Shown here piece after piece: positions 18,878-21,988 of a stretch of DNA of 64,000 nt. The translations under genes were made by a program, and so were the position numbers. The notes below the pieces were generated by a model. The model was given only the letters and a program-made list of their open reading frames with translations, was not told the DNA's origin and did no database searches. Location: positions 1,525,465-1,589,464 of the forward strand of contig NC_020134.1 in assembly GCF_000331995.1 (NCBI RefSeq), written 5' to 3'. The stretch comes from Thermoclostridium stercorarium subsp. stercorarium DSM 8532 (lineage in GTDB: Bacteria > Bacillota > Clostridia > DSM-8532). Numbering within the stretch: position 1 is the first letter of the stretch; each line of letters begins with the position of its first letter.

Positions 18878-20740
18878 TTATACTATCATTTCCATAATTT
18901 TTAAACTTCGATTTATAAATTCTGTCAGATCATCGGGATTCATGGGTTTCAGGCTTAGCAGCGCGATGTCATAAATCTGTTTTACCAGCAGTTTGTTCTT
19001 TTCTTCCTTTTCCTTGTCGTCAGCGCTTTCGGCAATGGATTTTACCAGTTTGTTGTTAAGGTTTATAACCAGAGTTTTTTCCGTCGGGAACATGTTGCCG
19101 GCATCTTTGCCCATGAAAATCCTGCCTATGTCATGAATACGTCTTGACTGTTCCGAAAGTAGTATTATTGCAGGCGTGGACTCGGTTTTCAGTTTTTCCA
19201 CCTTAATTTTCAGATCCTTGATATTAAGTGTATCCTTAAACAGTTTTTCTATCTTTTCCGACAGCTGCTTTGTTTCGGCTTCATTCTCCTCTTTCGTCTG
19301 ATCCTTGAGGCTTGACGTAATGTCCGCATCTATTCTGAGGAACTTGACGTTACTGTTCTTGGACTCAAGAAAACTTATAAAGTGATTGTCAATCAGTGCG
19401 TCCAATACCACAGCTTCCATCTGGTTGTTTTTGAATATGTTTATATACTGGGCCTGCTGGTTGACGTCGTTCACATAGTAAACAATATTTTCGTGCTTGT
19501 TCTTGTTTCTTTCAAGATACTGATTAAGTGTTACATATTCGTTGTTAATGGTCTTGAATATAATTATATCCTTCACTTTGTCGTAAAATTTCTCCTCGCG
19601 CATGCAGCCGTATTTGACAAACGGATTAATGTCATCCCAGTATTTTGTGTAATTCTCAAATTCCTTCTTATATAATATGTTAAGCTTATCTGCAACCTTC
19701 TTTATGATATGCTGTGAAATCTTTTCCACGTAACCCTCATTTTGCAGGTAACTGCGCGAGACATTCAGCGGGAGATCAGGGCAGTCAAGCATTCCTTTCA
19801 GCATAAGAAGAAATTCGGGTATTACTTCCTTTATATTATCAGCCACAAATACCTGGTTATAATATAATTTTATTTTTCCCTCCATTGTTTCAAATTCATG
19901 CTTCAGCTTCGGGAAATAAATAATTCCCTGCATTCTGAAGGGATATTCCATGTTGATATGAATCCAGAACAGCGGATCGTTGAAGTCATCAAATGCCTCG
20001 CGGTAAAACTTTTTGTATTCTTCATCGGTACAGTCCCTGGGATTTTTCTTCCAAAGCGGATTGGTGTTGTTTATCGGCTGCAAATTTTCCTTTTTAACGT
20101 CTTTTTTGTCATCATTTACCAGGTAAATTTCATATGGCAGGTATGCAAAATATTTTTTCAGAACGTCGCGCATTTTGTAAAAATCGGTATATTCAAGGCT
20201 GTCTTCGGCCATATACAGAGTAACCGTTGTACCTACGGTATTTCTGTCGGAATCGGTCATTTCATACTCCGTATCTCCCTTGCTTATCCATCGTACCGCC
20301 TGAGCGCCTTCTTGATATGACAGCGTATCTATCTGAACCTTTTCAGCTACCATGAAGGCAGAATAAAATCCCAATCCGAAATGACCTATAATCTGCTGAT
20401 CATCGGTTTTATCCCTGTATTTTTCAATAAAATCCACCGCGCCTGAAAAAGCTATCTGGTTTATATATTTTTTAACTTCATCAGCTGTCATTCCAATTCC
20501 GTTGTCTATTATTTTTATCGTTTTATTTTCTTTGCTTACCGCCACCGTTATTTCAAATTTTTCATTTTCCCGTACCGGCGCTTCGCCTATATCCTGAAGC
20601 TTTTTAAGCTTGCTGATTGCATCAGCGGAGTTTGAAACCAGTTCTCTTACAAATATATCCTTTTCGGAATACAGCCATTTTTTTATTATAGGCAATATAT
20701 TCTCTGTGCTGATGGAAATACTGCCCTTTTCCTGAATCAT
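18878..20740 (-). CDS. htpG: Chaperone HtpG (Hsp90)
   Basis: 620 residues from ATG 20740. The upstream ATG at 20755 overlaps the GGGAGG ribosome site and is rejected. The GHKL ATPase domain shows ELVSNSADAISKL, IIDNGIGMTADEV and GHFGLGFYSAFMVAEKV, all in the first 130 residues. Middle and C-terminal dimerisation domains follow. HtpG is an ATP-dependent cytosolic chaperone for late folding and stress repair. Its control region (20797-20924) has a perfect CIRCE element, a sigma-A promoter and a leader hairpin, so HrcA repression is expected. In Bacillus subtilis htpG lacks CIRCE, so the wiring differs from that model. Confidence 0.97.
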   Translation of the reverse strand: MIQEKGSISISTENILPIIKKWLYSEKDIFVRELVSNSADAISKLKKLQDIGEAPVRENEKFEITVAVSKENKTIKIIDNGIGMTADEVKKYINQIAFSGAVDFIEKYRDKTDDQQIIGHFGLGFYSAFMVAEKVQIDTLSYQEGAQAVRWISKGDTEYEMTDSDRNTVGTTVTLYMAEDSLEYTDFYKMRDVLKKYFAYLPYEIYLVNDDKKDVKKENLQPINNTNPLWKKNPRDCTDEEYKKFYREAFDDFNDPLFWIHINMEYPFRMQGIIYFPKLKHEFETMEGKIKLYYNQVFVADNIKEVIPEFLLMLKGMLDCPDLPLNVSRSYLQNEGYVEKISQHIIKKVADKLNILYKKEFENYTKYWDDINPFVKYGCMREEKFYDKVKDIIIFKTINNEYVTLNQYLERNKNKHENIVYYVNDVNQQAQYINIFKNNQMEAVVLDALIDNHFISFLESKNSNVKFLRIDADITSSLKDQTKEENEAETKQLSEKIEKLFKDTLNIKDLKIKVEKLKTESTPAIILLSEQSRRIHDIGRIFMGKDAGNMFPTEKTLVINLNNKLVKSIAESADDKEKEEKNKLLVKQIYDIALLSLKPMNPDDLTEFINRSLKIMEMIV

Positions 20741-20796
20741 ACACAAACCTCCCATTACATTTTCATCTGTTTATATGAACCCGTTTTAACGCATTA

Positions 20797-20825
20797 AAAA
20801 AGCAACAAGTCTAAACTTATTGCTT
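20797..20825 (-). terminator. Terminator-like hairpin inside the htpG leader
   Basis: On the minus strand AAGCAATAAGT pairs with ACTTGTTGCTT over 11 bp (one G-U) around a TTAG loop, followed immediately by TTTT. It lies downstream of the htpG promoter and about 60 bp before the start codon. It can stop read-through from ispG, whose stop lies only 2 bp from CIRCE. It would also act on transcripts started at the htpG promoter. Flanking ATGAACC (20846-20852 region) and GGTTCAT can pair around it. Confidence 0.7.
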
Positions 20826-20862
20826 AAAAAGATACGCCTGATCACAGGTTCATGCTATCAAT

Positions 20863-20890
20863 ATCATAACACTTAAGCATTTGTTGTCAA
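20863..20890 (-). promoter_or_regulatory. Sigma-A promoter of htpG
   Basis: TTGACA (20885-20890) and TATGAT (20863-20868) are spaced 16 bp. The -35 lies 7 bp from CIRCE. The expected leader is about 115 nt. Confidence 0.8.
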
Positions 20891-20897
20891 TACTTTT

Positions 20898-20924
20898 TTA
20901 GCACTCATCCGACAAGAGTGCTAA
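20898..20924 (-). promoter_or_regulatory. CIRCE operator (HrcA-binding site)
   Basis: TTAGCACTC, nine bases, GAGTGCTAA: a perfect match to the 9-9-9 CIRCE inverted repeat bound by the heat-shock repressor HrcA. It lies just upstream of the htpG -35 and 2 bp after the ispG stop codon, so HrcA would block polymerase binding. Confidence 0.95.
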
Positions 20925-20926
20925 CA

Positions 20927-21988
20927 TCAAAGTTTCTTTATCTCCTCCAGTAATTCCTCCACAATTCTGTCTTCCGGAATCTTCCGGATTATTTCCCCAT
21001 GTCTGAAAAGAAGGGCACAGCCATCTCCGCCGGCTATACCTATATCCGCCTCTCTGGCCTCGCCCGGGCCATTTACCGCACAACCCATAACAGCCACTTT
21101 TATCGGCTTATCAATATTTTCCAATGCCCGTTCCACTTCTTCGGCAATCTTTATCAAATTAATCCTGGTCCTGCCGCAGGTCGGGCAGGATATAAGTTCG
21201 GCGCCGCGGTTGTAAAGGCCAAGGGATTTTAATATCGTCTTTCCTGCTTTTATTTCTTCCACGGGATCGCCGGTCAGGGAAACACGGATTGTATCCCCTA
21301 TACCTTCGGCAAGCAACGCACCTATCCCGACCGCCGACTTGATTGTTCCGCTGTAAACAGTACCTGCCTCGGTGATACCGACATGAAGAGGATACCTTAC
21401 CTTTTCCGATATAAGCCTGTATGCGGCTATTGTTAAAGGAACACTTGTGGCTTTAAGAGAAATAACAATATCTGAAAAGTTTAATTTCTCCAAAATCGAA
21501 ACATGCCTTAACGCGCTCTCCACCAGGGCTTCCGGAGTAATACCGTGATATTTTTCCAAAAGATCCTTCTCCAGCGAACCGGAGTTAACGCCTATGCGAA
21601 TCGGTATGCCACGTTCCCTGGCGCAGCTTACAACACTTCTTACCCTGTCTTCAGAGCCGATATTGCCGGGGTTAATCCTGACCTTGTCGGCACCCTTCTC
21701 CATTGCAGCTATGGCAAGGCGGTAATCAAAGTGAATATCGGCCACAAGTGGAACGGATATTTCTTTTTTTATTTGACCTATAGCCATGGCGGCATCCATA
21801 TCGGGCACAGCCACGCGGACAATATCGCACCCCGCATTTTCAAGCTTTCTGATCTGGGCGATTGTGGCCTTTACATCCGAAGTTTTAGTATTTGTCATGG
21901 ATTGAATGGAAATCGGCGCGTCTCCGCCTATATAAACATTCCCCGCCCGTACTTTAACGGTTTTTTTTCTGTTTATCAGCCTATCCAT
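20927..21988 (-). CDS. ispG: 4-hydroxy-3-methylbut-2-enyl diphosphate synthase (flavodoxin/ferredoxin type)
   Basis: 353 residues, the bacterial two-domain form. IspG reductively opens methylerythritol cyclodiphosphate, the penultimate MEP-pathway step, using a [4Fe-4S] cluster. Cluster cysteines are visible in SCPTCGRT (about 263-270) and [12 protein letters not shown] (about 306). The TIM-barrel half has SIQSMTNT and RINPGNIG. It starts 1 bp after rseP and closes the uppS-cdsA-dxr-rseP-ispG operon. Confidence 0.97.

Follow-up and report, generated by a model that had tools for sequence, protein, structure and literature searches.

The window, meaning the whole 64,000-nucleotide stretch of Thermoclostridium stercorarium DNA that was analyzed, comes from a genome consisting of a single contig of 2.97 Mb. 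In the region read from 20924 to 20738 on the minus strand, ispG is followed by a perfect CIRCE operator, TTGACA, TATGAT, an 11-bp hairpin with six T's and then htpG, which encodes the bacterial Hsp90. The features of the locus are as follows:

20927..21988, minus strand: ispG (gcpE), the upstream and co-directional gene, with a GcpE/IspG domain match
20898..20924, minus strand: CIRCE operator, perfect TTAGCACTC-N9-GAGTGCTAA, a predicted HrcA site whose distance to the -35 is conserved in relatives
20885..20890, minus strand: -35 hexamer TTGACA, 7 bp past the CIRCE
20863..20868, minus strand: extended -10 hexamer TATGAT (TGtTATGAT), with the TG one base ahead and the transcript predicted to start at ~20856
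20796..20825, minus strand: leader hairpin AAGCAATAAGT-TTAG-ACTTGTTGCTT and T-run, a predicted weak intrinsic terminator/attenuator
20775..20853, minus strand: enclosing helix ATGAACC...GGTTCAT, found by folding and particular to the source genome
20738..20753, minus strand: Shine-Dalgarno GGGAGG (20753-20748) and probable htpG ATG (20740-20738), outside the conserved hairpin
18878..20740, minus strand: htpG (bacterial Hsp90), with an HSP90 domain match

The CIRCE starts 2 bp past the ispG stop codon, and no terminator-like hairpin was found in the interval between that stop codon and the htpG promoter. The initial annotation had described a perfect CIRCE 7 bp ahead of TTGACA with TATGAT 16 bp further on, and all of these elements were indeed present on the minus strand; the two hexamers, with their 16-bp spacer, were the top promoter in the 6-kb stretch that was scanned. 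The htpG start is likely the ATG at 20740 rather than that at 20755, because the latter, which begins the longest open reading frame, overlaps the Shine-Dalgarno sequence GGGAGG. The scan for htpG returned mostly distant proteobacterial genes, and the nearest named relatives in it were two genome bins of uncultured Clostridiaceae/Clostridiales, AS20ysBPTH_8 and DTU070.

The operator at 20924-20898 has 0 mismatches and was the sole CIRCE in the window when up to three mismatches were allowed, versus 0.02 sites expected. The source genome encodes HrcA (L003; Pfam HrcA, 1.4e-62), and five perfect CIRCE elements were identified in it: at hrcA itself, at two groESL operons, at a nucleotidyl-transferase gene and at htpG. 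At hrcA, the first groESL operon and the nucleotidyl-transferase gene the CIRCE lies 6-11 bp past the -10, no promoter was called for the second groESL operon, and it is only at htpG that the element is clearly upstream of the -35. To place this arrangement in context, the regions upstream of 102 htpG genes of the class were collected, 60 of them with a CIRCE. The distance from the end of the CIRCE to the -35 was 6-8 bp in 56 of the 60, from 14 families (7 bp in 46, 8 bp in eight and 6 bp in two), and the letters of this spacer varied across htpG genes, so that it is the distance, rather than the sequence, that is kept. Among the remaining four, three overlapped the -35 (family f57) and one differed; the f57 elements (L162, L177 and L202), which have 1-2 mismatches, represent a second geometry at htpG. 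The comparison set of CIRCE elements at hrcA, groES/groEL and nucleotidyl-transferase genes was drawn from 16 further genomes of many families plus the source genome, and ~38 of these were downstream of the -10, typically by 4-14 bp, with two elements ambiguous and four having no promoter call. The usual place of an HrcA-regulon operator, at or just past the transcript start, is not strictly defining for the regulon, and the htpG operator was found elsewhere. Since the CIRCE ends 6-8 bp ahead of the -35 in 56 of 60 htpG genes, the expected HrcA-binding position at htpG, as judged from this spacing, is a fixed one near -57, like that of an activator.

In its perfect CIRCE, its sigma-A-type promoter and the chaperone nature of its gene, htpG matches the known HrcA/CIRCE system, but its operator is fixed 7 bp upstream of the -35 as opposed to at or past the start site, as it is for groE and dnaK, for example in Lactobacillus plantarum (PMC1676014). 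The proposal that htpG is under HrcA/CIRCE control was strongly supported by the conservation described above and is already in print for clostridial htpG, CIRCE having been reported there for Clostridium cellulovorans and, as cited in the same paper, C. acetobutylicum (PMC8336468); elsewhere, htpG has been assigned a class of its own, class IV, with no other member (PMC3848806). The presence of a CIRCE at clostridial htpG is itself known, and it is the fixed geometry and the leader hairpin that go further. No paper commenting on the position of CIRCE at htpG was found in our literature search, and its odd fixed place upstream of the -35 had been overlooked in the initial annotation.

Several other observations were made on the HrcA regulon. 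The source genome has two groESL operons (L004 and L005), with a perfect CIRCE ahead of each. A CIRCE just past the -10 of the nucleotidyl-transferase gene (sugar-nucleotide pyrophosphorylase-like) was seen in five families, perfect in L001 (G000:C1:74733-74755) and L225 and with one mismatch in L252, L254 and L257. It is likely that this gene is an extra member of the HrcA regulon, connecting the heat-shock response with the metabolism of sugar nucleotides or of the envelope. In two other families (L265 and L270) a CIRCE was located ahead of hsp20-like genes.

The 11-bp stem followed by T's that had been noted ahead of htpG was located at 20825-20800 and consists of 11 pairs (one U-G and three G-C, with A-U at the stem base) closing a 4-nt loop, with a six-T run at 20801-20796. 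When the leader was shuffled by dinucleotides 1000 times, a hairpin and T-tract as good turned up in only 5 shuffles, and a stable hairpin with a directly adjoining T-run, beyond chance, is the anatomy of an intrinsic terminator. The predicted energy is -11.2 kcal/mol at 37 °C, -5.5 at 60 °C and -3.1 at 70 °C. A 400-kb sample of the source genome was taken. In the ranking by stability, 74 gene-end candidates were compared, a set padded with chance hairpins. Sixty-two percent of the 74 were weaker than the leader hairpin and the clear terminators seen were at about -17 to -25 kcal/mol, and given both the padding and the strength of the clear terminators, the leader hairpin can be called unusually weak with only moderate confidence.

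The hairpin sequence GCAATAAG-CTTGTTGC-T6 was conserved at htpG in ten genomes belonging to four genera of one family, with the consensus GCAAT(A/G)(A/G)G-loop-(C/T)TT(G/A)TTGC and then a T-run, which was on the htpG side in all ten. Its mean pairwise identity was 0.885, versus 0.60 for shuffled sequence, and the leader flanks were at background (0.75 versus 0.73 before the hairpin and 0.83 versus 0.81 after it, all being inflated by the alignment of unequal segments). Within the genus, identity was 0.82 for the hairpin versus 0.42-0.58 for two other gene-end terminators near the locus, a tiny control of three comparisons; the terminator after htpG failed as a further control because most relatives do not have one. 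Because sequences ending in TTGCTTTTTT also turn up in terminators of this class that are unrelated, the hairpins may owe some of their similarity to convergence. A covariance model identified the hairpin once in the source genome, at htpG, and found it at htpG in every genome having it. We rejected the possibility that it is a repeat or marks a regulon, given its single copy in the source genome and weaker matches elsewhere that were ordinary gene-end terminators. No such hairpin was found in the htpG leaders of the sister genera g2 and g7 or of the other families sampled.

Because the site GCAATAAGT-N3-ACTTGTTGC is near-palindromic, conserved in sequence and downstream of the promoter, we considered whether it is instead bound as a DNA operator by another regulator. 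The stem cells were 98% paired, and changes were of the kind A-U to G-U or U-G to U-A that keep pairing in RNA, with the U-G pair itself conserved. The dyad carries a conserved T/G mismatch, the variants in L012, L014 and L016 break the DNA dyad yet keep the RNA pairs, the T-run is one-sided and the genome holds a single copy, all of which makes a DNA operator highly improbable. The counts of pair changes were not above the shuffled control (108/500); with too few of them to beat the shuffles, the case for an RNA hairpin therefore rests on its anatomy and the one-sided T-run.

The position of the hairpin relative to the promoter bears on whether it is a plain terminator of the ispG operon, with the htpG promoter lying upstream of it and the leader position tolerated rather than used. 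Such a role would fit two findings: most genomes with the hairpin have ispG as the gene upstream, and the interval from ispG to the promoter holds no other terminator. However, in four genomes (L010, L012, L015 and L016) the gap between ispG and the CIRCE is roughly 70-150 bp, and the hairpin is still downstream of the promoter, as it also is in L014, whose upstream gene is a different one; placement past the promoter despite this free space and in L014 makes a pure ispG terminator less likely. In addition, all htpG transcripts have to cross the hairpin, and it is more strictly conserved in sequence than other terminators are. As such, we view a role solely as ispG terminator as rather unlikely, albeit the most credible of the alternatives, and the hairpin may additionally serve that purpose. 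The htpG gene of L014 (G012:C143) has no detectable CIRCE and is preceded by a gene that appears by eye to be alanine dehydrogenase-like, and it has kept the hairpin. The initial suggestion that the leader stem acts as a terminator or attenuator is supported, as far as comparison of genomes can indicate, by the conserved stem sequence, by pairing kept through G-U changes, by the T-run on the htpG side and by retention of the hairpin where another gene takes the place of ispG upstream.

In all ten genomes the candidate terminator lies between the promoter and the start codon of htpG, as would be the case for an attenuator, starting 39-76 nt past the -10 in most and only ~8-12 nt past it in L012 and L016, too short a distance in these two for an antiterminator to fit upstream. 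The comparison of leaders revealed no conserved antiterminator, sensor or aptamer upstream of the hairpin of the kind that characterizes regulated attenuators, no conserved upstream reading frame for a leader peptide was seen by eye, and an Rfam search of the window returned no regulatory RNA family at the htpG leader. The leader therefore has a terminator hairpin and T-run between promoter and start codon in common with the leader attenuators of Firmicutes (trp, pyr and riboswitches), but, unlike them, it lacks any antiterminator, leader peptide or ligand-binding element that is conserved, and it has no Rfam match. With no conserved antiterminator or sensor, it would be a guess that termination is regulated rather than constant.

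The leader of the source genome has a strong fold (z -4.75), in which ATGAACC (20853-20847) pairs with GGTTCAT (20781-20775), and 14 of 1000 shuffles of the flanks were as good. The enclosing helix that had been proposed from these motifs thus forms in the fold, but its proposed change with temperature was not supported, since relatives have no equivalent: structure in the flanks was not clearly significant in five of six relatives tested, and we rejected the helix as a switch on account of its lack of conservation. Moreover, polymerase makes its 3' strand only after passing the termination point, too late for the helix to influence the first termination decision. We treat it as a feature of the source genome only. 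The Shine-Dalgarno sequence was unpaired in the fold of 20857-20753 and paired in the lowest-energy fold extended to the start codon, a pairing that was not conserved and had no Rfam match. The htpG leader is similar to the ROSE and FourU RNA thermometers in being structured and preceding a heat-shock gene, but its conserved hairpin leaves the Shine-Dalgarno sequence unmasked, and any effect would be transcriptional rather than translational. The strong fold, seen in the source genome and in L011, and the location of the hairpin almost at the 5' end in L012 and L016 could also suit a hairpin that serves mainly to stabilize htpG mRNA at its 5' end, or that belongs to a rod-like leader shielding the transcript or holding the ribosome-binding site accessible. 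A stabilizer would not need a T-run, yet one is present in 10 of 10 genomes and always on the same side, and the flanking helices are not conserved; we consider a stabilizing role very unlikely.

In view of the sequence features above, the hairpin is probably a partial intrinsic terminator (attenuator) under an HrcA-regulated promoter, passing only part of the transcripts. On balance we lean, with modest confidence, toward htpG belonging to the HrcA regulon and being governed by a two-step switch, in which HrcA limits initiation and a weak terminator acts in the leader; HrcA binding, termination and dependence on Nus factors or heat are what we infer from the observed anatomy, conservation and restriction to htpG. 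HrcA bound to the CIRCE, centered near -57 and fixed 7 bp ahead of the -35, would limit initiation, probably by disturbing the alpha/upstream contacts of RNA polymerase, as against occupancy of the start site at groE and hrcA. Polymerases from the htpG promoter, together with read-through from ispG, would then meet the weak terminator, where a fraction would be released with a ~60-nt RNA; the short promoter-proximal RNA of this length that had been anticipated fits the predicted start near 20856 and predicted termination at the T-run. A leaky terminator of this kind would lower both basal htpG expression and ispG read-through. Under protein-folding stress, release of HrcA would increase initiation, and more polymerases would pass the terminator as initiation rises or as heat weakens the hairpin.

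In Bacillus subtilis, weak hairpins with terminal A-U or G-U pairs need NusA and NusG (PMC8060035), and in its sequence the htpG hairpin is comparable to these terminators, being likewise weak with A-U at the stem base and a strong T-run. The AU-rich hairpin, with its A-U base and internal U-G, may be of this NusA/NusG-dependent kind. Heat should destabilize it further, which may also raise read-through into htpG. A stronger version, in which the hairpin is a heat-tuned terminator (a thermometer acting on termination, not translation) beneath the upstream HrcA site, so that heat is sensed twice, seems to us quite doubtful. Dual heat sensing by these two mechanisms was not found described in the literature for class I heat-shock genes, and a published RNA-seq study of Clostridium stercorarium does not discuss start sites or terminators. 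Overall, the initial interpretation of the locus was partly supported.

In the usual view, HrcA acts at groE and dnaK by obstructing the start site. The upstream CIRCE conserved at htpG across 14 families would mean a second working geometry for HrcA, and if a heat-shock promoter is indeed followed by a weak terminator that is conserved, this would offer a simple case for testing termination efficiency as a sensor of temperature or stress.
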